Shown here: positions 42,284-62,232 of the stretch, in pieces
Layout of the letters: each line of letters starts with the position of its first letter
How positions within the stretch are numbered: the stretch's first letter is position 1
Origin: Salicibibacter cibi
GTDB lineage: Bacteria > Bacillota > Bacilli > Bacillales > Marinococcaceae
DNA: 64,000 nucleotides
Direction of reading: 5' to 3'
Assembly: GCF_016495865.1 (NCBI RefSeq)
Contig: NZ_CP054706.1
Location: forward strand, 2,914,001-2,978,000
Made by a program: the position numbers and the translations under genes
Notes under the pieces: generated by a model
Told to the model about the DNA's origin: nothing
Database searches by the model: none
Seen by the model: the letters and a program-made list of their open reading frames with translations, nothing else

Positions 42284-42311
42284 GGTCAAACCCTCCTCGG
42301 CTAAGAACGAC

Positions 42312-42689: not shown

Positions 42690-42700
42690 AGGTACTCCTT

Positions 42701-43573: not shown

Positions 43574-43576
43574 GCG

Positions 43577-44098: not shown

Positions 44099-44112
44099 GT
44101 TTCGATCCTCCT

Positions 44113-45366
44113 TTATCGTACGCTTGCTTCTTTCTGAAAAAGAGAAAAGGCTTTGCAAATATCCTTCGTCTTGTTTTTCGCCTGTTCCAAGACATCGGGA
44201 TTGCCGTTACTTCCCAGAACATCAGCAATAATTTCGCCGATGTTGATCATTTCTTGTTTTCCCATTCCCCGTGTCGTAAGCGCCGCCGTGCCGATTCTAA
44301 TGCCGCTCGTCACAAACGGACCTTCCGGGTCAAACGGGATTGTATTTTTATTGACCGTAATGCCGGCTTTTTCAAGCAATTGCTCCGCCTCTTTTCCAGT
44401 AAGATTCCACGGCCGTACATCGACAAGCAATAAATGGTTGTCAGTTCCGCCTGAAACGAGGGCAGCGCCGTTCTCTTTTAGCGTGTCACCGAGTGTGATT
44501 GCGTTTTCCACAATTTGATTGGCATACGTTTTGAATGACGGTTGCAGGGATTCTTTAAAAGAAACGGCTTTGGCGGCAATCACATGCATTAATGGTCCGC
44601 CTTGCAGGCCGGGAAAAACAGCCTTGTTAATCCCTTTTGCCATCTCTTTGTCATTCGTTAAAACAAACCCTCCGCGAGGCCCCCTTAATGTTTTATGTGT
44701 CGTGCTGGTTACAACGTCCGCATAAGGCACCGGAGACGGATGAATGCCGGATGCAATAAGTCCGGCAATATGCGCCATATCGACCATCAATTTTGCATCA
44801 ATCTTATCCGCAATTTCCTTAAATTTTGCGAAGTCAATGACCCGTGGATAAGCACTTGCACCGGCGATAATGAGTTTTGGTTTTTCTTTTTTTGCTTGTT
44901 CTTCCAATTGATCATAATCAATGAAGTGATCGTCTTCCCTGACACCATAAGAAACAACATCAAACCACTTGCCGGAAATGCTGACAGGACTGCCATGCGT
45001 CAAGTGCCCTCCGTGGGATAAATTCATCCCCATCACCTTATCCCCGGGTGTTAACTGTGAGTAATAAACAGCCAAGTTGGCGGATGCTCCGGAATGAGGT
45101 TGCACATTCGCATAATCGGCTTGATAAAGCTCTTTCAATCGTTCGATTGCCGTACTCTCGGCAATGTCCACGTACTCACATCCGCCATAATACCTTCGTC
45201 CCGGATAGCCCTCCGCGTATTTGTTCGTCATCACCGATCCCATGGCTTCCATGACGTCCTCGCTCACAAAATTTTCTGATGCAATTAACTCAAGCGTGTC
45301 ATGTTGTCTGTGCCGCTCTTCCTCAATAGCCGAAAAAATGGTCGCGTCGTTTTCTTTTAAACTCAT
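44113..45366 (-). CDS. glyA: Serine hydroxymethyltransferase
   Basis: PLP enzyme joining glycine and methylene-tetrahydrofolate to serine and back. The 417-residue protein has the PLP-lysine in [15 protein letters not shown], the N-terminal [17 protein letters not shown] segment and the folate region [10 protein letters not shown]. Start at ATG 45366 after GGAGGGG. It is first in an operon led by a tandem glycine riboswitch, so here it probably works in the direction glycine to serine, feeding the dehydratase. The usual biosynthetic glyA of Bacillus lies elsewhere, so this may be a second copy. Confidence 0.96.
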
Positions 45367-45406
45367 CAAAACCCCTCCATTTAAAATTATTTTTGGGTAA
45401 ATAAAA

Positions 45407-45612
45407 AAGGACAGAAAAAGGTATATACACCTTTTCTCTGTCCTTGTACCTGAGAGTTCAACTTCCGTATACGGAGTCTACCCCTTTGGTGGCTTTAGCG
45501 CTCTCCAGAGCTGCGTCCCATTGTAGTCATTTTACCTGAGAGATTCATTCACAAGGTTTTTTATGTGAATATTGCCCCTTCGGTGCCGACGCTTAAGTCG
45601 GTCTCTCCCACA
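45407..45612 (-). ncRNA. Tandem glycine riboswitch 1 with terminator
   Basis: Two glycine aptamers lie in tandem. Both show the complement of the aptamer core (TACCTGAGAG at 45447 and at 45533; CCCCTTTGGTGGC and GCCCCTTCGGTGCC; CTCTCC at the outer ends). They are followed on the minus strand by a long terminator stem, AAGGACAGAGAAAAGG with its partner (45407-45445), and a T run. Glycine binding should open the stem and switch on glyA-sdaAB-sdaAA-gcvH-dsdA. Confidence 0.95.
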
Positions 45613-45725
45613 ATAATCATTCGCAAATTTATTTAATTTGTTATTATCTTAGCAAAGCAATTGTCTTAATGCAACATTATTTTAAAAATTATTTAAACAT
45701 TCTTATCTCATCAGATTTCTATATA

Positions 45726-46646
45726 CTATATAGAGACCTCGTTGCCTTGGTATTTGGCGGCTTCTTGCCATACCTGTGCTTTATTAACCTGTTCATCGGC
45801 GTGATAAGAAGAACGAACGAGGGGTCCTGCCTCACAATGACGGAACCCTTTTTGCATAGCAATTTCTTTAAACCGCGCAAATTCCTCGGGTGTGTAGTAT
45901 TTTTGCACATCCAAATGTTTCTTCGTCGGCTGCAAATATTGTCCGATCGTCATAATATCCACATCGTGGGCACGCAAATCATCCATGACTTCTTCGATTT
46001 CTTCGGGCGTTTCCCCGAGGCCGATCATAAGACTTGATTTCGTCGGAATATCGGGATGCAATTCCTTGGAATAGCGAAGAAATTCCAAAGAACGATCATA
46101 CGTCGCGCGTGCACGAACTTTCTTCGTTAAGCGCCGGACCGTTTCAATATTGTGGTTCAATATATTCGGGCGAGCCTCCATGAGCGTTTGTAAATTGTCG
46201 TGCAACCCCATCATATCCGAAGGCAATACTTCAATCGTCGTAAGCGGATTGCGGCGACGGACGGCGCGAACTGTTTCTGCGTACACCCGTGAACCTCCGT
46301 CTTTAAGGTCATCACGGGCAACAGCCGTAATAACGACGTGTTTCAAGCCCATTTGTTCCACGGACTCGGCAACTCGTTCCGGCTCGCCCCAATCAAGTTC
46401 ATTGGGAAGTCCGGTTTTCACCGCACAAAATCGGCACCCGCGCGTGCATACATCCCCGAGGATCATAAATGTGGCCGTTTTTCTTACTGCCCAGCATTCA
46501 TGAATATTTGGACAGCGCGCTTCTTCACAGACCGTATGTAATTTCTTTTCGCGCATCATCTTCTTAAGGCCTTTATAGGATTCATTTGTATTTAATTTTA
46601 TTTTTAGCCAATCCGGTTTGCGAACATGCGCTTCTTTTTTCCCCAT
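45726..46646 (-). CDS. lipA: Lipoyl synthase
   Basis: Radical SAM enzyme that inserts two sulfurs into octanoyl groups on carrier proteins such as GcvH. The 306-residue protein has the first cluster's Cys set in [12 protein letters not shown] and the radical SAM motif CTRGCRFC, plus the late [10 protein letters not shown] with the conserved Ser. It lies between two glycine riboswitches, upstream of the operon that holds gcvH. Transcription from riboswitch 2 through the arcC remnant may reach it. Confidence 0.96.
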
Positions 46647-46720
46647 TTGATCACATCCTTTCCCTTCAACGCATAATATCGAAGAACAGAGACAACTGTA
46701 CAGTCACTTTTTCTCTGTAT

Positions 46721-47226: not shown

Positions 47227-47432
47227 AGGACAGAGAAAAGGTGTATACACCTTTTCTCTGTCCTTTTACCTGAGAGTTCAACTCCCCGTGACGGAGTTTA
47301 CCCCTTTGGTGGCTTATGCGCTCTCCAGAGATGCGTCCCATTGCAGTCATTTTACCTGAGAGATTCATTCACAAGGTATTTATGTGAATGTTGCCCCTTC
47401 GGTGTCAACACTTATGTCGATCTCTCCCACAA
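47227..47432 (-). ncRNA. Tandem glycine riboswitch 2 with terminator
   Basis: A second copy, almost the same base for base as the one before glyA: two aptamers (TACCTGAGAG at 47268 and 47353, CCCCTTTGGTGGC, GCCCCTTCGGTG) and a perfect terminator hairpin at 47227-47266 with GGACAGAGAAAAGGTG arms. It faces the arcC remnant and, beyond it, lipA. The rest of the 47174-47555 gap shows no gene. Confidence 0.93.
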
Positions 47433-47555
47433 TTTTCATTCGCAAATATCAATATTTGATATTAGTTTAACAAACAAGAGGTTATAAGGCAATGGTTATT
47501 TGACAATTATTTAAATTTTATATTTACACACGTTTCTATGACATTGCCCAAATTC

Positions 47556-48683
47556 CTATGCTTCAAATGTAAGAGCCAACCTTTTATAATACTCAATCGA
47601 CCGCAAGTAAGCATCAATATTCACATATTCATTCGGTTGATGGGCCAACTGCTCGTCTCCGGGGCCATAAATAAGTGTAGGGATCTTACTTTCCGGATTC
47701 AAAACGGCTGCATCCGTATAGTATGAAACACCGTAAACATCGTCGTCAGTAGCCTTAATATCTTTTGCGGTCTGAATGATTTGACTTGACGATTCAGTCA
47801 AGATGCCAGGCCTGTTTAGTAACGTCTCCATTTTAAAAGTTGAGTCATCGTTTTCTTTTTTAAACAAATCGGTTAATTTCCTTTTTAATTCCATAAAAAT
47901 ATTATCGTGGGACTGAGGCGGGATCGTTCGAATGTCGACATATATATGACATTGATCCGGAATAACATTTGTTTGCATGCCGCCTTCAATTTTATTAATC
48001 GATAAACTGCTTTCCCCAAGGGGGGCACCGGTAATTTTCCAATCCAGTCGGCATTCATCAAGGATGGCCATGACGTCTCTTATCCGTTCAATGGCATTAA
48101 TCCCTCGATGCGGCATCGCACCATGTGCCGTTTTCCCGAACGTGATAATTTCAACCCATAATGCACCTTTATGACCGACGACGACTTTCTCTCGTGTCGG
48201 TTCACCGATGACCATTGCTGCAGTGTTCGACAGATCATGGTCATCCAAGTACGTTCTCGCCCCGCAGCTATCCACTTCCTCCCCCGCTGTCGCAAGAAAT
48301 ACAATATCGTGAGGCGGTTCTTCGTTTTGTAAATATAGTGACTCCACGGCTAAAAACATGGCAGCAAGGCCGCTTTTCATGTCTGAAGCCCCTCTGCCAT
48401 ATAGTTTATTCCCCGTTTGCTCTGCTTCAAATGGTGGGTAATCCCATTTTTGTTCCCCGGGTAAAACCGTATCCATATGACCGCAAAAGAAGAGCTCACG
48501 ACGATCTCTTCCTTTAAGCCGAATGCTAAAGTTACTTCGGTTCTCCCCTAACTCTGTTATTTGATAAGGTAATCCGCTTTTCTCACAGCGCTCTACAAGA
48601 AGTTCTGAAACGTATGATTCATTACCCGGCGGATTAGAGGAATTGACCCTTAGCAACCTTTTCAAAAATTGTTCCGCGTTCAC
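47556..48683 (-). CDS. M20 family metallopeptidase / amidohydrolase
   Basis: A 375-residue dinuclear zinc hydrolase of the ArgE/DapE/allantoate-amidohydrolase type. Metal ligands are seen in FFCGHMDTVLPG, GRGASDMKSGLA, the catalytic ATAGEEVDSCGA, VIGEPT and the late His in QLAHQPNEY. A dimerisation lid domain lies at about 175-285. It starts with GTG overlapping the stop of the DUF1989 gene (GTGA), so it is the last gene of the microcompartment operon. It probably frees an amino acid or splits a ureido acid. Confidence 0.87.
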   Translation of the reverse strand: MNAEQFLKRLLRVNSSNPPGNESYVSELLVERCEKSGLPYQITELGENRSNFSIRLKGRDRRELFFCGHMDTVLPGEQKWDYPPFEAEQTGNKLYGRGASDMKSGLAAMFLAVESLYLQNEEPPHDIVFLATAGEEVDSCGARTYLDDHDLSNTAAMVIGEPTREKVVVGHKGALWVEIITFGKTAHGAMPHRGINAIERIRDVMAILDECRLDWKITGAPLGESSLSINKIEGGMQTNVIPDQCHIYVDIRTIPPQSHDNIFMELKRKLTDLFKKENDDSTFKMETLLNRPGILTESSSQIIQTAKDIKATDDDVYGVSYYTDAAVLNPESKIPTLIYGPGDEQLAHQPNEYVNIDAYLRSIEYYKRLALTFEA

Positions 48684-49297
48684 ATACTCCCCCCTATCGC
48701 TTGCATTTTTAACGGTGTGACTTGCCAGCCGTTAACGGCCTCCATATCTTGCGAGCACGTAGAACATGCAATGACAACATCTTCCTTCGCCCTTAGCCAC
48801 ACATAATCCCCGGGCTTCGACAGCGGTTCTTGAATGTCATAATCTCCCCATTCATCAAGCACGTTGTTCATAAACCAATTGATAGGATCAGGTATGATTG
48901 CCGGATGTATCCCATGGGTTTCAAGGGCCTTTTTCAAATTGTCGTGGCAATTCGGATGCTCGTCGTCATCAAAATCGACTTTATACCTGTAATAATCACA
49001 GGCGGGGAAGAAAAAATCATGTTTCCCGACCGTTTCCTTGACGAGTTCCATGAGCGGTCGTCGTTTATTACTGTATAATCCATCCCCGTGCTTGAGACGA
49101 ATGCTGCTTAATGAAGCACGCATATGAACGGGAGAAACATACTCATCGATGTCATGTTTATTAAAACAAACAAAATCCCCCACCTGCTTACCTTCGACAT
49201 CAATGATAATTAATTCATCTCCGGCCTTTAGTTCTGCACTCCTACCTTCATAAGGAGGAATGAAAATTTCTTCTCGAACCCCTGTGCCATAAACCAT
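48680..49297 (-). CDS. DUF1989 (urea carboxylase-associated) protein
   Basis: A 205-residue protein of the DUF1989 family. Members next to urea/guanidine carboxylase form carboxyguanidine deiminase as a pair of paralogues; here only one is present and no carboxylase is seen. Conserved features are GDELIIIDVEGKQVGDFVCFN, FFPACDYYRYKVD with a Cys, HPNCHDNLKKAL and the late VIACSTCSQD. Start at ATG 49297, seven bases after GGGAGGT. In this operon it probably acts on a C-N bond of a carbamoyl or guanidino intermediate (inference). Confidence 0.85.
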   Translation of the reverse strand: MVYGTGVREEIFIPPYEGRSAELKAGDELIIIDVEGKQVGDFVCFNKHDIDEYVSPVHMRASLSSIRLKHGDGLYSNKRRPLMELVKETVGKHDFFFPACDYYRYKVDFDDDEHPNCHDNLKKALETHGIHPAIIPDPINWFMNNVLDEWGDYDIQEPLSKPGDYVWLRAKEDVVIACSTCSQDMEAVNGWQVTPLKMQAIGGSM

Positions 49298-49316
49298 ATA
49301 TCTGACCTCCCTATCC

Positions 49317-50003
49317 TTATTCCAAAAAGACGGCAACTGCCCGTATCGGTGACCCCGTCCCTCCGCGAATCTTTAATGGCAACCCAAAATATAAAAAGCG
49401 TTTCCCTACAATTTTGTCTAAATTACATAAGTTTTCCGTATTAGACATTTCATACTCACGACACATCAGATGCCCAGAAAACTTCGAGTCTTTAGGATTA
49501 TCAGGTGCCGGCGCGTCGACGCCAATGTTAACGACACCTTTTTCTCCAAGCCATCTTCCGGCCTCTATATTCAGCCCCGTGTAGCGTGTAAGCCATTCAT
49601 CCGTTCCATATGCCCGTTCATAATGACCGGTATACAGAAGGACGATATCCCTTTTTTCCAGCACTTGTCCTGATCTTTGCAATGCCCTTTCAAGGTCACC
49701 CGCCGTAATATAATCATCAGGGGAAACATGTGACACATCCAGGCAAATGGCAGGGCCATAAAAATATTCGAGTGGCATTTCATCGAGTTTCTTTCCGTTC
49801 GGGTCAAACTCGTAAATTGCATCAGTGTGTGTCGGACCGTGTTCATTAATCAAGAGATTATAAGTGGCAAATTCAAAGCCGACTTCCTTTTTAGATTCTT
49901 CATGCGTCTTGTTTTGAAATATAAATGTTTTTTGGTGAAGGGGAAAGACGGGCATGCCATTATAAATCTCTTGCGACAAGTCGACTAATTTAACATTACT
50001 CAT
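49317..50003 (-). CDS. Cyclase family hydrolase (kynurenine formamidase-like)
   Basis: A 228-residue metal-dependent amide or lactam hydrolase of family PF04199, which includes kynurenine formamidase and isatin hydrolase. The metal motif is present as HGPTHTDAIYEF (canonical HxGTHxDxP), with Gly to Pro and Pro to Glu changes nearby, and the second region is RDIVLLYTGHYERAYG. It opens cyclic amides or cleaves formamides. It lies 14 bases downstream of the adenine deaminase gene. Confidence 0.86.
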   Translation of the reverse strand: MSNVKLVDLSQEIYNGMPVFPLHQKTFIFQNKTHEESKKEVGFEFATYNLLINEHGPTHTDAIYEFDPNGKKLDEMPLEYFYGPAICLDVSHVSPDDYITAGDLERALQRSGQVLEKRDIVLLYTGHYERAYGTDEWLTRYTGLNIEAGRWLGEKGVVNIGVDAPAPDNPKDSKFSGHLMCREYEMSNTENLCNLDKIVGKRFLYFGLPLKIRGGTGSPIRAVAVFLE

Positions 50004-50016
50004 AAATCGATCCTCC

Positions 50017-51834
50017 TCATTCTACGACAGTAGGTAGCACTTCAAATTGATTGACATCAATTAAACCCATGTCGGTAATCTTCCACTCAGGGCTTGTTAC
50101 GAGCGACCAGAAAGATAGGTGCATAAATGGCACATGTATGCCACACCCGAGTTCTTCTTTAGCCAAGCGTGACATTTCATCTACTCTATCACTCACTTCT
50201 TTGCCGCTTAGTTCATCGCTGATTAGTCCTCCAACTTTTAGCGGCAAGTCACCGATCACTCTTCCCTCGTTTATCATCGCAATTCCGCCATTCATCGCTA
50301 TGACCCGGTTGACGGCTGTCGCCATATCATCATAGTTCGTTCCGGTGACGATAATATTGTGCGTGTCATGTGCAACACTTTCGGCAATCGCACCGCTTTG
50401 CAATTGGAAACCATGCAAAAACGTTTTTCCGATTCGATTACTCCTTCCATGGCGTTCGACAACGAGGAGAGGGAGAACATCCTGTTGGAGGCAAGGCTCG
50501 ACGACTCCGCCGGAAACATTTAAATTAAATTCTTCCGCACCTGTTAAGTTTTGGTCGGGAATGGCAACGATCGATCTAACTCTGGCTTTATTGCTATTTC
50601 GATTCGTAGTGATGTGTAGGTCTTCAGTTTTTACCCTTTTCCTTTTTACTGACGTTTTCGTGCTTTCCGGATACGTATACGAAGGAAGGTCTATCGTTAA
50701 TTCACCTTTATCGGCTGCCGCATTTCCATTTAAATAAACTTTATCAATGGTCATTTCATTCAAGTTATCGATAACAACAACATTGGCACGTTTCCCCGGG
50801 GCCAATACACCTACATCCTTAAAACCAAAATGCGTGGCCGGATTGATGGTAGCCATTTGAATGGCTTCAACGGGATCAATCCCTTCGGCGATTGTCCGTT
50901 TAATAATGTCGTTCATATGGCCATCCGCTAAAAGATCATCAGCAGCCATATCGTCGGAAACGACGATCGCTCGCCTTGAATCAAGCCCTTCTTCTTTGAT
51001 GGCACGAACACATTCTGCCATATTACGTTGGGAAGAACCTTCACGCATAAATACACTCACGCCATAGCGAAGTTTTTCAACGGTTTCTTCTTTTGTTGTC
51101 GTTTCATGGCAAGAAATATGAGTGCCCCCACTAATAATATGTGCAGCCAATTCTTTACCCAACAGTCCCGGGGCGTTGCCTTCCACCGTTTTCCCAATGC
51201 TGTTGGCATAGGAAACCGCTGCTACTAAATCATCGATGAGCTCGGGGGCATTTTGATAGACAGGATTGATATTGCTAAAACTTTGAATTTCACCGATACC
51301 TTGTACATTTTCATCATTCAATAAATCGTTCATATGTTTAGCAGTGACTTCTTCGCCCGCCGTCTCTAACCCGGGAGCATCAGGAACAGCAGCCGGGACA
51401 GTGAAATAGATCTGGTTCGGCAATGTTTTCGCTTCTTTAATCATTTCCTGCATTCCATGAACGCCAAGGACGTTTCCAATTTCATGCGGATCGCCGACCA
51501 ATGTCGTCGTCCCCGTCGGGATCGATAGCCTTGAAAATTCCGTGCACGTTAACATCGAACTTTCAAAATGCATATGTGAATCTATAAACCCGGGGCTAAT
51601 GAACTTTCCGCTTACATCTTCAATCGTTGTCGATGCTCCGATCAAATCTTTCACATCACCGACAAGTAATATATATTCATCCTTAATAGCGACATCTGCC
51701 TGATAAATTTCTCTTGTGACCGTATTAATAATGTAGCCGCCCTGAAGAACAAGATCAGCGAATAAATGTTGATCCAAGAGGACATCAATCAATTTACGAC
51801 GCTGAATCGCTTCCTTGAAATTTTCCGCTTCCAT
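50017..51834 (-). CDS. adeC: Adenine deaminase-like amidohydrolase
   Basis: A 605-residue protein of the AdeC family, which makes hypoxanthine and ammonia from adenine using a binuclear iron or manganese site. Metal motifs include FISPGFIDSHMHFESSM, the Glu bridge in VQGIGE, GGTHISCHETTTKEE and IVVSDDMAADDLLADGHM. The C-terminal AdeC domain is present (HDTHNIIVTGTNYDDMATAVNRV). Start at ATG 51834, nine bases after GGAGGGG. Being inside a shell operon suggests a related cyclic N-compound may be the true substrate. Confidence 0.9.
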   Translation of the reverse strand: MEAENFKEAIQRRKLIDVLLDQHLFADLVLQGGYIINTVTREIYQADVAIKDEYILLVGDVKDLIGASTTIEDVSGKFISPGFIDSHMHFESSMLTCTEFSRLSIPTGTTTLVGDPHEIGNVLGVHGMQEMIKEAKTLPNQIYFTVPAAVPDAPGLETAGEEVTAKHMNDLLNDENVQGIGEIQSFSNINPVYQNAPELIDDLVAAVSYANSIGKTVEGNAPGLLGKELAAHIISGGTHISCHETTTKEETVEKLRYGVSVFMREGSSQRNMAECVRAIKEEGLDSRRAIVVSDDMAADDLLADGHMNDIIKRTIAEGIDPVEAIQMATINPATHFGFKDVGVLAPGKRANVVVIDNLNEMTIDKVYLNGNAAADKGELTIDLPSYTYPESTKTSVKRKRVKTEDLHITTNRNSNKARVRSIVAIPDQNLTGAEEFNLNVSGGVVEPCLQQDVLPLLVVERHGRSNRIGKTFLHGFQLQSGAIAESVAHDTHNIIVTGTNYDDMATAVNRVIAMNGGIAMINEGRVIGDLPLKVGGLISDELSGKEVSDRVDEMSRLAKEELGCGIHVPFMHLSFWSLVTSPEWKITDMGLIDVNQFEVLPTVVE

Positions 51835-51839
51835 TTGGT

Positions 51840-52121
51840 TCAACCCCTCCCATAATCACATTCCAAAATATCAATAATGCCGACAATGGCTGCATCAACA
51901 GGCGCATGATTGTTATCAAACGCTCTTGATGCCATACTTCCTCTAACGAAGATCACTTTTTCCCCAACCCCTGCACCCACCGTATCGACTGTAATAATGG
52001 GTTGCGATTGACTTGGTTGATCGTCAATCCCCACCGGCTGTGTAACCAACATTTTTGCACCGACAAGGCTTTCGTCCTTTCTTGTCGCCGTTACAGTGCC
52101 AACTACAATACCGATTTCCAT
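51840..52121 (-). CDS. BMC vertex protein (EutN/CcmL family)
   Basis: A 93-residue pentameric shell protein that caps the vertices of a bacterial microcompartment. The family is clear from MEIGIVVGTVTATRKDESLVGAKMLVT, the segment DTVGAGVGEKVIFVRGSMAS and the late VDAAIVGIIDIL. Start at ATG 52121, eight bases after AAAGGA; the longer frame upstream overlaps the previous gene. It is the only vertex protein in the operon. Confidence 0.95.
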   Translation of the reverse strand: MEIGIVVGTVTATRKDESLVGAKMLVTQPVGIDDQPSQSQPIITVDTVGAGVGEKVIFVRGSMASRAFDNNHAPVDAAIVGIIDILECDYGRG

Positions 52122-52134
52122 ATTAGGTGTCCTT

Positions 52135-52875
52135 TCATTCTTCACGAATTTGAATGTTATTTTCATAGGCTAAATCTCTGGCAAGCGGGGTAATGACCGT
52201 ACTTGAATCGATAAAAACCTTATCGTCTGATTGTAATATCATTTGTTTAATGATTTCTGCGCTTATAATCGTCTTGCGTCTAGATCTAGAATGGAAAAAT
52301 TGATTAACATCTTGTTCATCTGAAAATAATTGAATCCCGTAACTCTGGAGTTTATGCATTTGATTGTTCATTTCATTTTTTAAAAAAGGCGTCCCGTGAT
52401 TTAATCCGTTTTGAGCCCACATAGAATGATAAGGGTTTGAACCAATATCTAAGGCAGTGACTGTTTTTCCTTTCAACAAACTCCATAAAATAATATGGGC
52501 GAATGCACGGCTTTCGTTAAAAGCCAGTATATCCGATATAAGCGAAAATGATAAAACTGGTATAAAAAAAGATGAAAACCGTTCCTTTAAGGCATCTAAT
52601 CCATAATACGGAACGAATGCATCAATGCCTGTTAATGCATGGATATCCTCTCTACTGTATTGTTTTAACACAGAGTCTTCCATACTTATATAGATAGTCG
52701 TTCCACTTGCTTTTAATAGCTTTAATGCAGCTAACCCTCGTTCCATTCCGATCATATGATGAGAAAGAAGAGCCAGGATTTGCGGATGTTTCTGCAGTTC
52801 TGGCTCTGTTTTGTTTTTTTGTAAAAGTGCCTGCAAAGTGTAGGTAACAACAGCACTTTGCCTTTTTTGTTTCAT
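52135..52875 (-). CDS. BMC-associated flavoprotein-like protein
   Basis: A 246-residue protein. The middle (FIPVLSFSLISDILAF ... SRAFAHIILWSLLKGKTVTALDIGSNP) resembles HFCD-type flavoproteins (the dipicolinate synthase B or UbiX-like fold). The C-terminus ends with KVFIDSSTVITPLARDLAYENNIQIRE, a motif common in proteins of other microcompartment loci. The flavin-binding motif is not canonical, so a redox or structural role is open. Its start overlaps the ribosome site inside the end of the upstream BMC gene, so the two are translationally coupled. Confidence 0.6.
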   Translation of the reverse strand: MKQKRQSAVVTYTLQALLQKNKTEPELQKHPQILALLSHHMIGMERGLAALKLLKASGTTIYISMEDSVLKQYSREDIHALTGIDAFVPYYGLDALKERFSSFFIPVLSFSLISDILAFNESRAFAHIILWSLLKGKTVTALDIGSNPYHSMWAQNGLNHGTPFLKNEMNNQMHKLQSYGIQLFSDEQDVNQFFHSRSRRKTIISAEIIKQMILQSDDKVFIDSSTVITPLARDLAYENNIQIREE

Positions 52876-52877
52876 GT

Positions 52878-53156
52878 TTATTCACCTTTGGAGAGTAGAG
52901 CGCGTTCAATTTCACTGTGAGGGCGTGGAATGACATGGACCGAAATCAGTTCACCAACTCGTCCCGCAGCATTTGCTCCGGCATCAGTCGCTGCCTTTAC
53001 AGCGCCAACGTCACCTCTCACCATGACAGTTACGAGACCAAAACCGATTTTGTCGTATCCGCATATTTCTACATTGGCTGCCTTTACCATCGCATCTGCT
53101 GCTTCTATCGCACCGACAAGACCTTTTGTTTCGACCAATCCTAAGGCTTCACCCAT
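52878..53156 (-). CDS. BMC-domain hexameric shell protein
   Basis: A 92-residue single-domain shell protein that forms hexameric tiles. It shows the full BMC pattern: [30 protein letters not shown], then [29 protein letters not shown] and the C-terminal [18 protein letters not shown]. It is the most typical of the three and is likely the main facet protein. Strong ribosome site (AAGGAGG). Confidence 0.96.
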
Positions 53157-53174
53157 TATGATGACCTCCTTGAT

Positions 53175-53621
53175 TTAAGCTTTATTTGATTTACCATTTT
53201 TGTCATTTGCGTTATCGCCCTGATTTTCCTTTGCTTTTGCACTCGCAGACTTTTCTTTCTTTTCCGTGCCTTGACTAATCGGCACATTTTCTTGCGATTT
53301 TTTTGGTCCGTCCTTCGATTGTCCAGTTGCTTTGTTCATGAACTTATCAAGTAATTCGTCTTTAACATTTGAATGCGTGCGCGGGATGACATGTGATGAA
53401 ACAATCTCTCCGACGCTTTCACCGGCGCTCGTGCCGGCTTCAACCGCTGAGGTAACCGCTGCAACATCTCCGCTTAAATGAATGGTGACACCGACAGCAC
53501 CGTTAACACCAATAACCGTCTCGCTGCCAAGAATCTCAACATTAGCTGCTTTCACTGCCGCGTCAGCTGCAGATACTGCTGTTGTATAGCCGATCGACTC
53601 AATTAAACCGAGTGCGATCAT
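53175..53621 (-). CDS. BMC-domain shell protein with charged tail
   Basis: A 148-residue protein. Residues 1-95 form a BMC domain ([30 protein letters not shown] ... HLSGDVAAVTSAVEAG ... IVSSHVIPRTHSNV). Residues about 96-148 are a tail rich in Lys, Asn, Ser, Gln and Glu with no hydrophobic core, most likely disordered. Such tails may bind cargo, the cytosol face or nucleic acid. Start at ATG 53621, eight bases after AAAGGAGG. Confidence 0.93.
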   Translation of the reverse strand: MIALGLIESIGYTTAVSAADAAVKAANVEILGSETVIGVNGAVGVTIHLSGDVAAVTSAVEAGTSAGESVGEIVSSHVIPRTHSNVKDELLDKFMNKATGQSKDGPKKSQENVPISQGTEKKEKSASAKAKENQGDNANDKNGKSNKA

Positions 53622-53656
53622 TAAGTCCACCTCCTTTACAAGTATAGCTTAACGAA

Positions 53657-54580
53657 TCATCCTATAAATTGACCCCCATTTTTTCTGAATACGGCTTCGG
53701 CTTCTTTAACGTCAGCTTGATTTCCTGCAACGAGTAAATATTCGTTTTCAATCGAATAGTTAATTGTTGTATTTGGAACTGCCTTCAATAAATAATCCAA
53801 TAGCGCAACGTTACTGTAATAAGGAAGCCCTTCAATAAAACATAGCCCCTCGACCGTATCGATGATGCCTAGTTGCTTGGAAAGCCATGTGCTCGGATAG
53901 TCAATGTTAAATACGTCATAACGTTTCATCGTATTTCGGTTTAATTTTTGGAACAATTGGTTCATGACGCTTTTTAGCCAGTGTTCATCTTCATAAAATA
54001 ACTCCAGTAAAAACTCGCCATTATTGTCTTTATCCCATTCCATATAAAACTTGATCGTTTGATTGTCTCTGATCACATTGTTTACATACACTAATTGACT
54101 CGGATAGCAGTTGGGAAAGTTAACGCTTCCTACGCTCGAACCTTGTGGATCACGATAAAAGAATGTCTTCAAGCTTTCAGATGGCTTCGAAAAAAACCAG
54201 GCGGCACCTCCCGCTTTAGATTCCCCTATCATTTTGGCGTGCCCTAAACCGTTAGAACCCTGATTGTAAACATTAACCCTTTCACCGTTTGTAAGCGACA
54301 TCGTTTGTAACTTGGATAATACGTTACTCGTGTTGTTGTTTGGGATAACCGTTACGTTGGGTTCGTGTGTTTTTTTGGAAACTGAAGATGACCGTTCGTT
54401 TGACGTTGTTGACAATCGTTTATTTTTGTTTTGTAATTGATAATTTGGTCGTTGAATGGCATCAACAGAAGAGCTTTCCTTCTTTTGTTGAAACATTGCA
54501 TTCTCTCCTCCGTCATTGGAGCTCTTCACACGTTCCGGACTAAGGATTTGCCCAACGACCTCTTTCATAAAATCCGACAT
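53657..54580 (-). CDS. Unrecognised 307-residue BMC-locus protein with divergent BMC-like C-terminus
   Basis: I do not recognise the full protein. Residues 1-17 (MSDFMKEVVGQILSPER) could form a short amphipathic helix like those that target cargo to shells. About 18-95 is a low-complexity linker rich in Ser, Asn, Gln and Lys. The middle is an unassigned beta-rich domain. The last 65 residues (VEGLCFIEG ... ALLDYLLKAVPNTTINYS ... LLVAGNQADVKEAEAVFRKNGG) follow the strand-helix-strand-helix order of a BMC domain. It lies between two shell genes, so a scaffold or tile role is likely. Confidence 0.65.
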   Translation of the reverse strand: MSDFMKEVVGQILSPERVKSSNDGGENAMFQQKKESSSVDAIQRPNYQLQNKNKRLSTTSNERSSSVSKKTHEPNVTVIPNNNTSNVLSKLQTMSLTNGERVNVYNQGSNGLGHAKMIGESKAGGAAWFFSKPSESLKTFFYRDPQGSSVGSVNFPNCYPSQLVYVNNVIRDNQTIKFYMEWDKDNNGEFLLELFYEDEHWLKSVMNQLFQKLNRNTMKRYDVFNIDYPSTWLSKQLGIIDTVEGLCFIEGLPYYSNVALLDYLLKAVPNTTINYSIENEYLLVAGNQADVKEAEAVFRKNGGQFIG

Positions 54581-54598
54581 CGCCCTGCCACTACCTCC

Positions 54599-54862
54599 CT
54601 ATAGTAATTTTTCAAGTTCCGTATGTGGCCGGGGGATGACATTACTGGATATTAAGTCTCCACCGACACGGTCCGGTGATAGCTTGCCAATTTCAACTGC
54701 AGAATTAACATCAGCGACATCCCCCTCAATAATCACTGTGATTAATCCTGACCCAACTCTTTTTAAGTCAAGACAGCTGATATTAGCGGCTTTCGCCATT
54801 GAATCCAGCGCTTCGACTGCCGACGTCAACCCCCTTGTTTCAACTAACCCAATTGCACTCAC
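54599..54862 (-). CDS. BMC-domain shell protein, second type
   Basis: An 87-residue BMC protein (SAIGLVETRGLTSAVEALDSMAKAANISCL ... GLITVIIEGDVADVNSAVEIG ... SNVIPRPHTELEKLL). The pore-loop region KRVGSG differs from the GYDKIGFG loop of the first hexamer, so a different pore is likely. Start is set at GTG 54862; the frame's upstream GTG (54871) lies in the ribosome site. It follows ubiD by about 20 bases. Confidence 0.93.
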   Translation of the reverse strand: MSAIGLVETRGLTSAVEALDSMAKAANISCLDLKRVGSGLITVIIEGDVADVNSAVEIGKLSPDRVGGDLISSNVIPRPHTELEKLL

Positions 54863-54882
54863 TAGGCTCACCCCTCACTCGT

Positions 54883-56222
54883 TTACAAATAATCATTTAA
54901 ATCAACCGTTACCGGTATAGATACTCGTCTAAATTCCTTTTTTTGGTCCAAAGGAACTGTAGCGTCAATACCCATTTTTGCCGTGACCCCCTTAGATTGT
55001 GGGAGGCTTCAAGGGGAGAACCATTACCCCCGGGCATGATCGTAATATCCATGTCGGCTTGGACTCTTGTCGCGATTGCCCATTCGACATCTTCGGGATT
55101 ATATAGGTCAACATCATCATCCACAACAACCACGTGCTTTAAGTCCTTATCACTTGCAAATGCTGCCATTGCCGCTTGTTTGCCGTCCCCGTCCGTCTTT
55201 TTCTCAATTTGAACAACGGCATGTAGGCGAGCGGCTGCAGCCATTGTCACGTGAACCGATTTCACATCAACCACTTGTCGGATAGTCCTAAAAAGGGTCA
55301 TTTCACGAACCAGACACATTGGCAGTTTCTCTTCTGCGCTGGCCGGAAAAATCGTTTGCGAAATCGCATTTTTTCTATAAGTTAGTGCAGACATTTCCAC
55401 AATCGGTTGTGGCATATCGCCTCCATAATACCCTCCTAATTCCGCAAACGTACCCTCTGAATCCCGTTCATAAGGTAACATTCTCCCCTCAAGCACAATT
55501 TCAGCTTCTGCCAAAACTTCCAAATCCACGGTACGACACTGAACGACATCCAATGATTGGCCGAGTAATGCACTGGCTACGTTTAACTTATCCGAATGAA
55601 ATAAATGTGTACTGACTTGAGATGCGAGTACGACAGCCGGGACAACGCCAAACATGACGGCGACTTCCAACGGTTCATTGTTTTGTTCAAACATTGAATA
55701 TTGACGTTGTAGTTCAGGTGACGTAATTGCAATGTTTGTCCTGTTGTCACCGATAAAACCCATTCTTCGGATCGATGTGTATCTTTTTTCCCCATTTGGT
55801 TCTTTCACAACTAATACACCGGATACATAATAAGGACCGCAATCTTCTGCGTGAAAAGTCGGAATGGGAAAATACTCGTCCAGTTTAAACGGGGGATAAA
55901 CAACATTTTCATGGACAGGCGCTGCATTAGAAGATACGGTATTCGTTTTAATGGGATGAACAATGCTTTCAACCAATGATGGAACCAATTCAGATGATGA
56001 AACACCTATACTGTCAGCCATTAACTCACGATCGCCACCAAGTCCGGCAATCATCGAAGAGTCATAACCTTTAATGCTATCAAACAGGAATGGTTCCTTT
56101 CCATCTTTTGTTTTGACGACAGCTCCAAGCTCAAATTTAGGATCAACTTCTTTTTTTATGCAATAGAGGAGATTTTTGTTTTCTAAACGCTCGATCAAAT
56201 TTCTCATTGATACGGGGTTCAT
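54883..56222 (-). pseudogene. ubiD: UbiD family decarboxylase with a frameshift near the C-terminus
   Basis: Prenylated-FMN-dependent decarboxylase. The first 411 codons read through the prFMN and metal regions (RYTSIRRMGFIGD, RTVDLEVLAEAEIVLEG, EGTFAELGGYYGG with its Glu). At a run of five C's (54987-54991; G's in the mRNA) the frame goes off, ending 26 codons later at 54909. In the next frame the expected UbiD ending appears, GVTAKMGIDATVPLDQKKEFRRVSIPV, with its stop at 54883, 20 bases before the next gene. One missing G, a sequencing error or a programmed slip would all explain this. Start at ATG 56222 overlaps the ubiX stop. Confidence 0.85.
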
Positions 56223-56776
56223 TGTTTCTCCCCCCATCTTTCGATAAGTTTGTGATCTATATTAAGTGCATCCAAAATACGTGACACGATAAAGTTAATC
56301 AGTTCCCAAATTTCTTTCGGTTGGTGATAAAATCCCGGAGATGCCGGCATGATTGATACATTTGCTTCGGCTAATTTTGTCATGTTTTGCAAATGAATCA
56401 AATGAAAAGGCGCCTCTCTCGGTACAATAATGAGGTTTCGTTTTTCTTTCATCGCAACATTGGCCGCTCGGGTAACCAATGTATCGCCTATCCCATTTGC
56501 AATCGCTCCCAATGTATTCATGGAACAGGGTACAATGACCATTCCGTCCGTTTTAAAAGAACCACTGGCAACCGGCGCAAATAAATTACTGTCATCATGA
56601 ACCTCAGCAAATTGTTTCATGTCGTTGATGTTGACACCGCATTCGTATTGCAACACCTTTTCTCCCGTTTTAGTTGCAATAACGTGTGTCTCTATGCCTA
56701 ACTGATGAAGGGTGCGGATCAATGTATATGCATACAAAGATCCACTTGCTCCGGTAACCCCCACAATGATTCTCAT
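56219..56776 (-). CDS. ubiX: UbiX family flavin prenyltransferase
   Basis: Makes prenylated FMN from FMN and dimethylallyl phosphate for UbiD-type decarboxylases. The 185-residue protein has all expected motifs: VGVTGASGSLYAYTL, VPCSMNTLGAIANGIGDTLVTRAA, LIIVPREAPFHLIHL and IMPASPGFYHQPK. It lies directly upstream of ubiD with a four-base overlap, so the two surely work together. Confidence 0.95.
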   Translation of the reverse strand: MRIIVGVTGASGSLYAYTLIRTLHQLGIETHVIATKTGEKVLQYECGVNINDMKQFAEVHDDSNLFAPVASGSFKTDGMVIVPCSMNTLGAIANGIGDTLVTRAANVAMKEKRNLIIVPREAPFHLIHLQNMTKLAEANVSIMPASPGFYHQPKEIWELINFIVSRILDALNIDHKLIERWGEKQ

Positions 56777-56779
56777 TTT

Positions 56780-57367
56780 TTAATTTCTCTGTTTCTGGGA
56801 GAATTTCTGTTTCACTGCTGTTTTGTACTCCTCTGTTGTCATTACCTGGCCAAAAATCCCAATATCCACCAAACCTGCTTCATGCATTTTATCGGTTTTC
56901 GAAGATGTCGCATCCGATAAACATACGACGTTATACGTATGATATAAAGCATCGGAGGCAGTGCTTCTTACGCAAACGTTCGTCCAATTTCCTGTTAGCA
57001 CGACAGTGTCAATACCTTCTTCACGAAGGAAAAGATCCAAATCGGTATATGCAAACGCACTATGGCGCCGTTTCTGGACAATATAATCCCCTTTGTCCTC
57101 ATCCGGTTGTAATTCGGGTATAAATTCTGATCCCCATGTCCCCTTAATTGCGTGAACGGGCCTTACTTTAAAATCGGCATCGTTTTTTCGATGGGTTTCT
57201 TGAATGAATACGACCTGAATGTCATTGTCATGGCTAAAATCAATTGTTTCTCTTATTTTTGGAACGATTTTTTCATTATTCTCTACTCTAAGAGCGCCCC
57301 CTTCCTTAATAAAATCGTTCAACATATCGATGACAATGATGGCATGTTTGTTTCCTTTTACGTCCAT
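56780..57367 (-). CDS. Isochorismatase-like cysteine hydrolase
   Basis: A 195-residue cysteine hydrolase. The catalytic triad is visible: Asp in IIVIDMLNDFI, Lys in IVQKRRHSAF and Cys in LTGNWTNVCVRSTA. Relatives include N-carbamoylsarcosine amidase, ureidoacrylate hydrolase (RutB) and biuret hydrolase, all of which free ammonia and carbon dioxide from carbamoyl groups. Start at ATG 57367, seven bases after GGGAGGT, which is part of the hydantoinase gene. As second gene after the ring-opening enzyme, it likely removes a carbamoyl group. Confidence 0.9.
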   Translation of the reverse strand: MDVKGNKHAIIVIDMLNDFIKEGGALRVENNEKIVPKIRETIDFSHDNDIQVVFIQETHRKNDADFKVRPVHAIKGTWGSEFIPELQPDEDKGDYIVQKRRHSAFAYTDLDLFLREEGIDTVVLTGNWTNVCVRSTASDALYHTYNVVCLSDATSSKTDKMHEAGLVDIGIFGQVMTTEEYKTAVKQKFSQKQRN

Positions 57368-57368
57368 T

Positions 57369-58844
57369 TTAAATACCTCCCGCAAATTGTTTTTCTTTTT
57401 CTTGTACCTTTACCGGTCTCCCCAACGTATTTTCCGTTTCATATTTCAATTCGCGATCAAGACGTTGAATGCTTTGACGTTCAACATATTGTCCATAGCC
57501 TGGTTCGCTTACAATACCGCCATCATCTGCATCATACACAGTTTTACCCCGGACAATTGTTTGCACAGGGATGCCTTTTAGTTCCATCCCATGGAATGGG
57601 GTGTATTTGGCATCCGTGAGCACATTGTCCTTGTCTATGGTGTACTCACGATCGAGATCGATCACAGTGAAATCCGCATCACTACCAAGCTCCATCGCAC
57701 CTTTTTTCGGATAAATTCCGTAATGTATGGCGGCGTTTCGGCTGGTCACTTCTACAAATCTTGACAATGATAAGCGCCCTTTGTTCAAACCTTTACTCAC
57801 TAGAATAGGTACCATTTGTTCGACGCCAGGCATACCAGGGAAACTGGTCCAAATGGTTGAACCCTTCTTTTCAGTTTCAATGTTATAGGGTGCATGATCG
57901 GTTCCGACGAAATCGACCGTGCCATCTGCAAGTCCCTGCCAGAAAGCTTCATTGTCTTCTTTGCCACGTAAAGGCGGTGCAATTTTGGCAAATGTTCCCC
58001 ATTTGTTCATGGCTTCCTCTGCGTTCAACACCAAGTATTGAGGACACGTCTCTGCTGTGACTTTAACGCCGCGTTTCTTTGCTTCACGAACGAGTTCGAC
58101 ACCTTTTTTGGACGTCATGTGAACAACATGAACACGGGCGTCCGTTTCTTCAGCGAAACTGAGAATCAGTTCTATAGCCGTTTTTTCAGCTATAACTCCT
58201 CTTGCTTCTGACCAGGCAACCGGATCTTCACGGCCTTCATTTTCCAACTTACTGGAATAAAATGTACAAATATCAAGGTTTTCGGCGTGAACACCGATAG
58301 GTAAGTCTGTCGGCGCAACATGACGGAATATTTCGAGCATTTCTGCATCAGATACCGGCGGAAACGTCGGTACAGAAGGTGTCATATAGACTTTAAACGC
58401 AACAACGCCCTCATCGACTTGGGGTTGAATGTTGTGAAGTAATCCTTCTCGAACATCTTCACCCGTCATGCCGCCCCAGAAGGCAAAGTCAATCACTGCC
58501 TTATCCTTAATGGCATTTAATTTTTCATGAAATTGTTCGCGACTACGTACAGACGGTTTTGTTGTACAAGGCATATCAATGTGAGAAGTTAGCCCACCCT
58601 TTGCTGCTGAGCGTCCGGCGGCATCAAACGTATCACGATGACTAAATCCCGGCTCCATAAAATGAGTGTGAGGGTCAATACATCCCGGAACGACCAACTT
58701 TTGTTTTACATCAACAACCTTATCGGCTTGCAAACCGTTAATGGAATCGGCAAAGCCGACAATTGTTCCTTGATCGACTAAAATATTCGTCAATACTTGT
58801 CTGTCCCCCTGCGGAATATTAGCATTTTTCACGATTAAATTCAT
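57369..58844 (-). CDS. Dihydropyrimidinase / hydantoinase / allantoinase family protein
   Basis: Zinc amidohydrolase that opens cyclic ureides or imides. The 491-residue protein has the binuclear site: GCIDPHTHF, the carboxylated Lys in VAFKVYMTP, His in GVHAENLD and VHVVHMTS, and Asp in FVGTDHAPYN. Allantoinase, hydantoinase or a new cyclic amide hydrolase all remain possible. About 35 residues at the C-terminus (from VERQSIQRLDREL) are a charged extension. It is the first gene of the shell operon and probably acts first. Confidence 0.92.
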   Translation of the reverse strand: MNLIVKNANIPQGDRQVLTNILVDQGTIVGFADSINGLQADKVVDVKQKLVVPGCIDPHTHFMEPGFSHRDTFDAAGRSAAKGGLTSHIDMPCTTKPSVRSREQFHEKLNAIKDKAVIDFAFWGGMTGEDVREGLLHNIQPQVDEGVVAFKVYMTPSVPTFPPVSDAEMLEIFRHVAPTDLPIGVHAENLDICTFYSSKLENEGREDPVAWSEARGVIAEKTAIELILSFAEETDARVHVVHMTSKKGVELVREAKKRGVKVTAETCPQYLVLNAEEAMNKWGTFAKIAPPLRGKEDNEAFWQGLADGTVDFVGTDHAPYNIETEKKGSTIWTSFPGMPGVEQMVPILVSKGLNKGRLSLSRFVEVTSRNAAIHYGIYPKKGAMELGSDADFTVIDLDREYTIDKDNVLTDAKYTPFHGMELKGIPVQTIVRGKTVYDADDGGIVSEPGYGQYVERQSIQRLDRELKYETENTLGRPVKVQEKEKQFAGGI

Positions 58845-58970: not shown

Positions 58971-59023
58971 AAAACCGTAGATGAAAGAGGGTATATGTAT
59001 ATACCACTCTACACCTACGGTTT
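58971..59023 (-). terminator. Terminator in the leader of the microcompartment operon
   Basis: On the minus strand AAACCGTAGGTG ... CATCTACGGTTTTTC forms a long hairpin with an inner GGTATAT/ATATACC helix and a T run. It lies between the DUF2294 gene and the first operon gene. It shares TCGGAG and the CCGTAG-TG-AG arm with the plus-strand terminator at 60587. It may end the DUF2294 transcript, or act as an attenuator for the operon. The 300-base gap holds also copy E. Confidence 0.75.
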
Positions 59024-59145
59024 CTCAGCTCTCCGATTAAACAGAGAATAAGCACCCGTGTTAAATGTTATGAGAAAACTATGACGAATCAATCGCCTAA
59101 CATCCCCATCTCAACTTAGCCGCCTGATTCACATATGGAAAATTA

Positions 59146-59505
59146 CTATAATCGATCTTCTTTAAAATAGATGACCGTACAAGCAAATTCAGTCTCAGGA
59201 TCGAAATCCTTTAATACGGTGTGGACATCTTTACTCAGGTGATATTGAATATCCCTTTTCAGTCTTTTTTTAAATTCGGAAATAAGCGCTGCATCGGCTG
59301 CGATCGTTAATTCTTTATACTGATGCTGGAGAGCTTCCAAGTCTGGGGCGCGTTTATGTTCACTGAATATCACAACGGCATTATTAAGGAACTCAATCTT
59401 TTGCTTTTTTACTCCTAAACCATACATCTCTTGATTGACTTTGTTATAAAGTTGTGAAATATCTTTCTTAAGAGTGCTCCTCAGCGAATCAGAAACTGCC
59501 TCCAT
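59146..59505 (-). CDS. DUF2294 (MpsC-like) protein
   Basis: A 119-residue soluble protein of the DUF2294 family, sometimes called MpsC after a protein linked to sodium and bicarbonate systems. It shows the pattern KKDISQLYNKVNQEMYGLGVKKQKIEFLNNAVVIF and ends TVLKDFDPETEFACTVIYFKE. No catalytic residues are known. It has a good ribosome site and lies upstream of the shell operon on the same strand, separated from it by a terminator. Confidence 0.78.
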   Translation of the reverse strand: MEAVSDSLRSTLKKDISQLYNKVNQEMYGLGVKKQKIEFLNNAVVIFSEHKRAPDLEALQHQYKELTIAADAALISEFKKRLKRDIQYHLSKDVHTVLKDFDPETEFACTVIYFKEDRL

Positions 59506-60487: not shown

Positions 60488-60493
60488 TTTTAT

Positions 60494-60628
60494 CAATACT
60501 CTGAAGGTGAGACCGATCAATCGGTGCACGATCAGACCCTAAAATGACAGCGGTTACTAACCCTTTGTTTATCGGAGGTTTTTGGAGCCGTAGATGAAGA
60601 TGCCACGTCTTCATCTACGGCTTTTTTT
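60494..60628 (+). ncRNA. Candidate cis-regulatory leader with terminator
   Basis: About 95 bases of likely folded RNA follow a good promoter and end in a strong terminator: GCCGTAGATGAAGA (60587-60600) with TCTTCATCTACGGC (60608-60621) and T7. Upstream helices include ACCGA-TCAA-TCGGT and GGTT-ACT-AACC. I cannot match it to a known riboswitch. The DUF3100/amidohydrolase operon starts 236 bases further on, with no better promoter seen between. Confidence 0.55.
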
Positions 60629-62161: not shown

Positions 62162-62232
62162 ATATATTATCACCACTAGAATAAGCGATGCTGTCGATTA
62201 ATTATTTTGGAAAATTAAAGGAGGTCAATATT

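Follow-up and report, generated by a model that had tools for sequence, protein, structure and literature searches.

Our analysis concerns a 64,000-nucleotide stretch of the Salicibibacter cibi genome (contig NZ_CP054706.1, positions 2,914,001 to 2,978,000), which we call the window, and a bacterial microcompartment (BMC) operon that lies on its minus strand. The genome is 3.81 Mb in a single contig. An initial annotation, made from the letters alone, described fourteen genes between positions 47556 and 58844. The frame listing agrees: fourteen minus-strand frames occupy that interval as one operon, with neighbors overlapping by no more than 32 bases or separated by no more than 37, and the arrangement is common to relatives. 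From high to low coordinates the genes are as follows; the starts of ISO, ADE, DUF1989, and M20 are the first start codons of their frames, and the true starts may differ by a few codons.

57369..58844, minus strand: HYD, cyclic amidohydrolase of the allantoinase/hydantoinase family (Pfam/NCBIfam); proposed xanthine amidohydrolase, opening the six-membered ring
56780..57385, minus strand: ISO, isochorismatase-family cysteine hydrolase (RutB-like); proposed 4-ureido-5-imidazolecarboxylate decarbamoylase
56219..56776, minus strand: UbiX, flavin prenyltransferase that makes prenylated flavin mononucleotide (prFMN); NF004685 at 228 bits (cut-off 188), TIGR00421 over its cut-off
54909..56237, minus strand: UbiD-family prFMN decarboxylase, TIGR00148 over its cut-off; proposed 4-amino-5-imidazolecarboxylate decarboxylase
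54599..54871, minus strand: H3, BMC-H shell protein (PF00936, 9.6e-25)
53657..54580, minus strand: P307, 307 aa, probable cryptic BMC-T protein (predicted fold)
53175..53630, minus strand: H2, BMC-H shell protein with a charged C-terminal extension (PF00936, 4.4e-22)
52878..53156, minus strand: H1, BMC-H shell protein (PF00936, 7e-30)
52135..52875, minus strand: P246, 246 aa, UbiX-like flavoprotein fold, TIGR02536-related (predicted fold)
51840..52166, minus strand: BMC-P vertex protein, EutN/CcmL (PF03319, 3.7e-28)
50017..51843, minus strand: ADE, adenine-deaminase family, TIGR01178 at 472.5 bits, exactly at the cut-off; proposed 4-aminoimidazole deaminase
49317..50003, minus strand: CYC, PF04199 metal hydrolase of the kynurenine formamidase/isatin hydrolase family; proposed 4-imidazolonase
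48680..49336, minus strand: DUF1989, carboxyguanidine deiminase family; proposed formiminoglycine deiminase
47556..48683, minus strand: M20, ArgE/DapE-type amidohydrolase, TIGR01910 at 243.8 bits (cut-off 217.6); proposed N-formylglycine deformylase

Twelve of these products fall into Pfam families: M20, DUF1989, the PF04199 cyclase, adenine deaminase (C-terminal domain plus amidohydrolase), EutN/CcmL, PF00936 three times, UbiD, UbiX-type flavoprotein, isochorismatase, and amidohydrolase. Hexamer and vertex genes thus stand together in one locus, as in a microcompartment, and a profile search of the whole genome returned no PF00936 match beyond the operon's three. The initial annotation's three BMC-H proteins and one vertex protein stand. 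Its two accessory proteins, neither of which had a Pfam match at E 0.001, we read differently. The predicted fold of P307 resembles tandem-BMC shell proteins, with a long N-terminus of low confidence in which residues 3-13 form a predicted helix resembling an encapsulation peptide, and P307 is probably a cryptic tandem-BMC (BMC-T) shell protein. The model of P246 resembles a UbiX-like flavoprotein.

The operon lacks the aldehyde core of classical metabolosomes (Eut, Pdu, Grp), as had been claimed for it. Specifically, no aldehyde dehydrogenase, alcohol dehydrogenase, or phosphotransacylase (PTAC) family was matched among the fourteen proteins, to which the search for aldehyde dehydrogenases was confined. 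The initial annotation had added that an aldehyde dehydrogenase and PduL encoded elsewhere and co-regulated with the operon would speak against it; PTAC (PduL, PF06130) was not found in a profile search of the genome, and 8 of the 9 Bacilli genomes tested likewise lack it, the ninth (G219) carrying one on another contig. Instead, a cyclic amidohydrolase, an isochorismatase, UbiD, and a deaminase accompany the shell genes. Loci of this kind have been described before. Axen 2014 (PMC4207490) reported a BMC locus of unknown function (BUF) without metabolosome core enzymes, in which shell genes stand with amidohydrolases, a deaminase, a carboxy-lyase, an isochorismatase, and formiminotransferases. 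The catalogue of Sutter 2021 (PMC8217296) lists BUF1-3, and Ravcheev 2019 (PMC6620236) read the same cluster as one for anaerobic xanthine utilization (Xau), a proposed third functional paradigm for microcompartments of which no enzyme had been characterized. Because of its gene content, we assign the S. cibi locus to the BUF/Xau kind. The suggestion that it might be a BMC type of unknown function therefore holds only in part: it does lack the aldehyde core, but the type was named BUF in 2014 and assigned to xanthine in 2019, and these descriptions rule out a new, unnamed type.

The locus departs from the published descriptions at one end of the pathway. The 2014 account includes formiminotransferases and a dehydrogenase, whereas the window locus has DUF1989 and M20 and no formiminotransferase gene (FTCD), which we regard as the feature of a variant. 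Absence of FTCD from the cluster has precedent in Bacillus fordii and Bacillus sp. 2_A_57_CT2, both counted as Xau in PMC6620236. That paper, with the same enzyme families and the same order of chemistry, explains the missing FTCD by a reaction outside the shell; we propose a replacement by DUF1989 and M20. In its main text, DUF1989, peptidase, riboswitch, and glycine do not occur. The purine route treated in a 2013 paper (PMC4016543) is a different pathway. We consider it likely that the locus is a Bacilli variant of the BUF/Xau microcompartment with a DUF1989/M20 ending, and we are more confident still of the xanthine core of the route.

Relatives of the operon fall into two groups. Our label "Bacilli" covers genomes of the window's class or those named here, and "clostridial-type" covers genomes from another class within the same phylum. 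Nine of 15 Bacilli genomes were reached through P307 or UbiD searches and six more through DUF1989. The UbiD search of genome contigs yielded five loci, in Natribacillus halophilus, Geomicrobium halophilum, Virgibacillus alimentarius, V. indicus, and Ornithinibacillus halophilus, that hold all 14 genes in the same order; the other four found independently of DUF1989 are the window, G301, G418, and G219 (P307 and UbiD searches). UBIX, UBID, three BMC-H genes, a P307-like gene, ADE, CYC, and DUF1989 occur in all 15 loci, so that the enzymes and shell genes do co-occur in relatives, as had been predicted. BMC-P and P246 are each present in 14, M20 in 11, and HYD and ISO adjacent in 12; in G219, HYD and ISO lie downstream on the same contig. 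H1 is 91-100% identical across the 15 loci read.

In 27 clostridial-type genomes, the sequence read (cut short in some) includes HYD, ISO, and UBID along with shell genes. These loci run HYD-ISO-UBIX-UBID-shell-ADE, commonly with a permease and genes resembling xanthine dehydrogenase (XDH) after them; CYC is on the opposite strand in many. A tree of 13 Bacilli and 25 clostridial-type loci, those having ADE, UBID, and HYD out of the 15 and 27 (with the HYD of G219 taken from another stretch of its contig), recovered each group as monophyletic with support 1.0 under midpoint rooting. Neighborhoods were read for 23 of 40 HYD-positive genomes and, besides our own, for 17 of the 27 UbiD-positive genomes, 10 of which had no shell genes on the stretch. 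We dropped L007 (G409; P307 at E 3.5e-4, a frame with stops, and no operon genes recognized in 3.3 kb) and left L112 (G782, a 6-kb contig without a shell gene) out of the clostridial-type set. In four clostridial-type loci (L045-L047 and L123, of genomes G122, G087, and G048), an extra protein that looks ASKHA-like by eye sits among the shell genes, and the PF04199 cyclase was not seen on the stretches read. Two further loci, L049 (G239) and L051 (G164), have HYD, ISO, and UBID together with no shell genes on the 15-19 kb read; both genomes have FTCD, and the arrangement is possibly a shell-free form of the pathway.

The enzymes retain residues expected of working catalysts. In HYD, whose nearest relative is L-hydantoinase, H59, H61, K151, H186, H242, and D316, which we take to be the binuclear amidohydrolase ligands, are kept in at least 97% of 40 sequences. 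The same holds for D20, K105, and C138 of ISO, presumably its Asp-Lys-Cys triad; the best solved relative of ISO is 3hb7 (E 2.7e-72), an Alkaliphilus metalliredigens protein. R158, E261, and E266 of UbiD, presumably the Arg-Glu-Glu set, are kept in at least 97% of 42 sequences, and the His-x3-His-x-Asp residues of CYC (H55, H59, D61), presumably its catalytic motif, show the same degree of conservation (at least 97%) among 34. For CYC, the matches were kynurenine formamidase and isatin hydrolase, the latter an enzyme that opens a five-ring amide. On this sequence evidence, we count the kept residues in favor of the xanthine route.

The initial annotation had proposed an enzyme set for nitrogen-ring breakdown acting in the order ring opening, decarbamoylation, prFMN-driven decarboxylation, and deamination. 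This order matches the classical route by which Clostridium acidurici and C. cylindrosporum ferment xanthine through 4-ureido-5-imidazolecarboxylate and formiminoglycine to glycine (PMC3519856). What the sequences show directly is which genes are present and linked, how well they and their catalytic residues are conserved, the RNA elements, and the complementary occurrence of DUF1989 and formiminotransferase; every reaction in our scheme, and the contents of the shell, we infer. Purines, once imported, would become xanthine outside the shell. HYD would then open the six-membered ring of xanthine to give 4-ureido-5-imidazolecarboxylate, ISO would remove the carbamoyl group, and UbiD, with prFMN supplied by UbiX, would decarboxylate the product to 4-aminoimidazole. 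ADE would convert 4-aminoimidazole to 4-imidazolone, whose five-membered ring CYC would open to formiminoglycine. At this point DUF1989 would replace the folate-dependent formiminotransferase, yielding N-formylglycine, which M20 would split into glycine and formate. The shell, built of three BMC-H, one BMC-P, and probably one BMC-T protein, may hold at least the part of the route around 4-aminoimidazole, an unstable compound and a more natural guest than the ammonia or cyanate that had been suggested, for which we found no support. DUF1989 and M20 would most likely work downstream of formiminoglycine rather than on the ring. In clostridial fermentation, the likeness lies in the chemical route and the difference in its end: the formimino group passes to folate, with a formate-tetrahydrofolate (THF) ligase, and the 2012 genome paper (PMC3519856), which identified no genes for these steps, was unable to locate those of the clostridial xanthine route.

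The proposed ending rests on three things: the complementary distributions of DUF1989 and FTCD, the amidine chemistry of DUF1989 relatives, and the residues kept. All 9 Bacilli loci that were found by other means carry DUF1989, an unbiased count, and none of 27 clostridial-type genomes does. A class-wide search found it at an identity of at least 66% in 8 of 348 genomes, in all 8 within such loci. Conversely, FTCD profiles match 26 of 27 clostridial-type genomes (6/6 and 20/21), in several of them in or near the locus and in L103 beside a formate-THF ligase gene. PF02971 was matched in 0 of 9 Bacilli genomes, as in 0 of 2 congeners without a P307 match, and FTCD_N (PF07837) in 0 of 15 Bacilli genomes. 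Because the tree shows one split, we treat the exchange of FTCD for DUF1989 as one event. DUF1989 members include carboxyguanidine deiminase. The window protein fits the family profile and has its zinc-binding Cys triad; C113, C130, C194, H127, and D197 are kept in 15 of 15 sequences, with the Cys triad, His, and Asp spaced as reported for trimethylamine N-oxide (TMAO) demethylase. The substrate of carboxyguanidine deiminase carries an amidine next to a carboxylate, as does formiminoglycine. CgdAB belongs to the same family but is a gene pair, whereas the operon has a single DUF1989 gene, which scores 114.7 and 64.8 against the UAAP1 and UAAP2 cut-offs of 284.7 and 205.95 and whose substrate would differ if our proposal is right. 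The logic of deimination followed by deformylation is that of histidine degradation, in which formiminoglutamate deiminase and a deformylase provide a folate-free route; the protein families there are unrelated and the substrate is formiminoglutamate. In the open-access literature, we found no description of a formiminoglycine deiminase activity for DUF1989 or of an N-formylglycine deformylase in M20. On balance, the chances that DUF1989 deiminates and M20 deformylates are about even. Separately, L141 has a more distant DUF1989 (45% identity) beside a frame that resembles a ureohydrolase by eye, which is consistent with amidine/guanidine chemistry in the family.

The surroundings of the operon connect it to purines on one side and glycine on the other. 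Past the window end, on the plus strand, the genes run from a permease and a deaminase through three XDH-like subunits to an XdhC-like gene and another permease, and directly downstream of the operon lie two glycine riboswitches and a block of glycine/serine genes. L131 denotes the stretch of the own genome that reaches past the window end.

L131:7929-8029, plus strand: purine riboswitch before the XDH-like operon
47255..47439, minus strand: tandem glycine riboswitch (RF00504, 62.6 and 39.8 bits) before an arcC remnant and lipA
45436..45620, minus strand: second tandem glycine riboswitch (RF00504, 68.1 and 35.0 bits) before glyA-sdaAB-sdaAA-gcvH-dsdA
40928..46646, minus strand: glycine/serine genes lipA, glyA, sdaAB, sdaAA, gcvH, and dsdA, named by eye from translations

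Xanthine dehydrogenase is an expected companion of BUF/Xau loci, often co-localized. XDH-like genes stand on the stretches read from 9 of 15 Bacilli and 23 of 27 clostridial-type genomes. The purine riboswitch resembles the xanthine-II and guanine-II riboswitches (PMC9295807) in being a purine-type aptamer before XDH-like genes with a base inserted near J3-1, and differs in that the equivalent of U51 is kept, by eye. Purine riboswitches recur in 5 of the 7 other Bacilli stretches that were examined. As read from the sequence, the first tandem glycine riboswitch is followed by a terminator hairpin at about 47262-47229, and the second by a terminator-like hairpin. G301 (L062) has the same arrangement of glycine riboswitches and glycine/serine genes, and L010 has one glycine aptamer before glyA. 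Since XDH-like genes, permeases, a purine riboswitch, and glycine riboswitches are linked to the operon, we take the substrate to be a purine, which narrows the earlier, correct but broader, claim of a nitrogen-ring substrate. The simplest reading is purine in, glycine out, with glycine inducing the adjacent glycine/serine genes through the glycine riboswitches. Between the first glycine riboswitch and lipA, at 46666-47118 on the minus strand, a carbamate kinase fragment corresponding to arcC residues 188-260 of 309 looks like a remnant; at its place in G301, no minus-strand frame of at least 130 aa is listed.

Several observations weigh against this account. The exchange of FTCD for DUF1989 is confounded with ancestry, there being two clades and one split, and the two congeners without a P307 match are also without FTCD. 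G562 has a shell locus with neither FTCD nor DUF1989, and 6 of the 15 Bacilli loci came from the DUF1989 search, so that loci lacking DUF1989 could be missed. Seven of the 27 clostridial-type stretches (L044-L048, L111, and L113, some of which end early) showed no CYC, and neither did an extension of L123; imidazolone ring opening may be done otherwise in these loci. None of the XDH-like subunits reaches the cut-off of its best NCBIfam model (pucE, XdhB, and pucD), and the model that the linked deaminase matches above cut-off is that of 5'-deoxyadenosine deaminase instead of guanine deaminase. Of the 7 other Bacilli stretches, 2 have glycine riboswitches and the remaining five showed none, and 7 clostridial-type stretches gave no Rfam match at all. 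Finally, we know of no activity for any of these operon proteins.

In one alternative, the xanthine core is kept and a different enzyme cleaves formiminoglycine, for example to glycine and formamide, while DUF1989 and M20 act on a side substrate such as a guanidino or carbamoyl compound. The absence of M20 beside 4 of 15 Bacilli loci (L043, L145, L146, and L148) counts both against our reading and for this one. That DUF1989 relatives act on carboxyguanidine or TMAO also favors the alternative. The complementary occurrence of DUF1989 and FTCD described above argues the other way, as do close DUF1989 relatives, seen in the class search only in these loci, and we regard the side-substrate explanation as possible but somewhat unlikely. 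The shell, too, might be degenerate or fail to assemble, leaving the enzymes free in the cytosol. G239 and G164, with HYD-ISO-UBID and no shell gene on the stretch read, suggest that the chemistry may not need a shell; however, the hexamer and vertex tiles and a probable BMC-T tile are present and conserved in the Bacilli loci, H1 at 91-100%, and a degenerate or non-assembling shell is improbable here.

Other substrates fare less well. Members of the HYD, ISO, and M20 families also work in hydantoin and pyrimidine degradation, so that the operon might degrade a different N-heterocycle (a pyrimidine, a hydantoin, or a nicotinate-type compound) with purine genes nearby by coincidence. Yet XDH-like genes, permeases, a deaminase, and purine and glycine riboswitches are all linked, the XDH-like linkage recurs in clostridial-type loci, and each of the five steps that lead from xanthine to formiminoglycine has a fitting enzyme, UbiX providing the cofactor. 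We rejected pyrimidine or hydantoin as the main substrate on the linked XDH-like genes, deaminase, and purine riboswitch, and hold a coincidence of this sort to be quite unlikely. With the reductive urate pathway (YgeXYWZ/SsnA), of which it might be a BMC-borne version, the operon has in common a hydantoinase and an M20 enzyme, and SsnA-like amidohydrolases lie close by. The operon's M20 scores 158 bits where the YgeY cut-off is 321, on which ground we rejected this route. Furthermore, none of the fourteen proteins matches a carbamoyltransferase or ammonia-lyase family, and the urate pathway has no place for UbiX, UbiD, ADE, or CYC, making it the most improbable of these readings.

Upstream of HYD, the operon is preceded by a leader RNA that recurs before other genes, a purine permease among them.

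58972..59110, minus strand: leader RNA with two hairpins, lying between the MpsC/DUF2294 gene and HYD; an intrinsic terminator overlaps its second hairpin
59146..59505, minus strand: MpsC/DUF2294 gene (PF10057), adjoining the operon upstream
60490..60593, plus strand: second leader copy, before DUF3100/P188/amidohydrolase genes
L131:4634-4737, plus strand: third leader copy in the own locus, before a purine permease

The MpsC/DUF2294 gene is the operon's upstream neighbor in 12 of 15 Bacilli loci, the window included. The second hairpin of the leader uses CCGUAG, which is also the 5' side of the intrinsic terminator, and the operon leader folds with a z-score of -6.4, terminator included. A core pattern was found at 13 places in 149 sequences (1.52 Mb, not all distinct since many loci overlap) and at none in one shuffled set. 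One place is counted twice (window and L131), and with a looser match in L010 there are 13 distinct elements. Nine of them stand before HYD, one before a permease-HYD operon, two before purine permeases (including one of the own genome), and one before the window's DUF3100 genes. A structural scan, which missed L060, L008, and L010, returned 11 matches at 10 separate places, and a terminator accompanied 10 of these matches; three mononucleotide-shuffled control sets gave one match, without a terminator. Since the patterns were drawn from the leaders themselves, both scans speak to recurrence and placement and are not independent discovery.

Folded singly, all 13 leaders form two hairpins, some with extra outer pairs, and the apical stem shows C-G to U-A differences, with positions counted outward from loops of 3-6 bases, so that stem registers do not line up exactly from one leader to the next. 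The ACGG/CCGU pairs are nearly invariant and prove nothing, and RNAalifold on a MAFFT alignment of the 13 recovered only 4 pairs, three of them invariant. Without the terminator, z-scores for 8 leaders ranged from -1.6 to -5.9, weakest in L144 and L011. The leaders of the window, L131, and L008-L012 had no match at gathering scores among 4227 Rfam 15 families (those of L060, L143, L144, and L147 were not included), and an additional Rfam comparison gave chance-level matches only. No description of the leader was found in the open-access literature. ANTAR and PyrR targets were set aside by eye against known motifs, and the guanidine-IV variant Gd4v was compared by description only, the available part of its paper mentioning neither an amidohydrolase nor a microcompartment. 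The leader is a candidate RNA control element, undescribed in Rfam 15 where scanned, that a metabolite or a protein may work. It is possible, though less likely than not, that the Bacilli have a purine-degradation regulon under a two-hairpin antiterminator RNA, perhaps a new riboswitch class, together with a microcompartment whose route ends without folate through DUF1989 and M20. A promoter and terminator scan gave no excess over shuffles (31 versus 36 and 9 versus 15) and missed the leader terminators. Behind the second leader copy, at 60865-63579 on the plus strand, is a divergent set of genes for a DUF3100 protein, a small protein (P188) to which no Pfam family matched, and a further deaminase-like amidohydrolase.

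Our study adds to what is known of BUF/Xau loci the DUF1989/M20 ending, the predicted folds of P307 and P246, and the shared leader RNA. The locus gives a complete assignment of genes to steps for the xanthine route that is open to test, and it suggests both an inducer to try, namely purines, and a product sensor in the glycine riboswitches. It also points to two possible new enzyme functions, in DUF1989 and M20, and to a candidate regulatory RNA.

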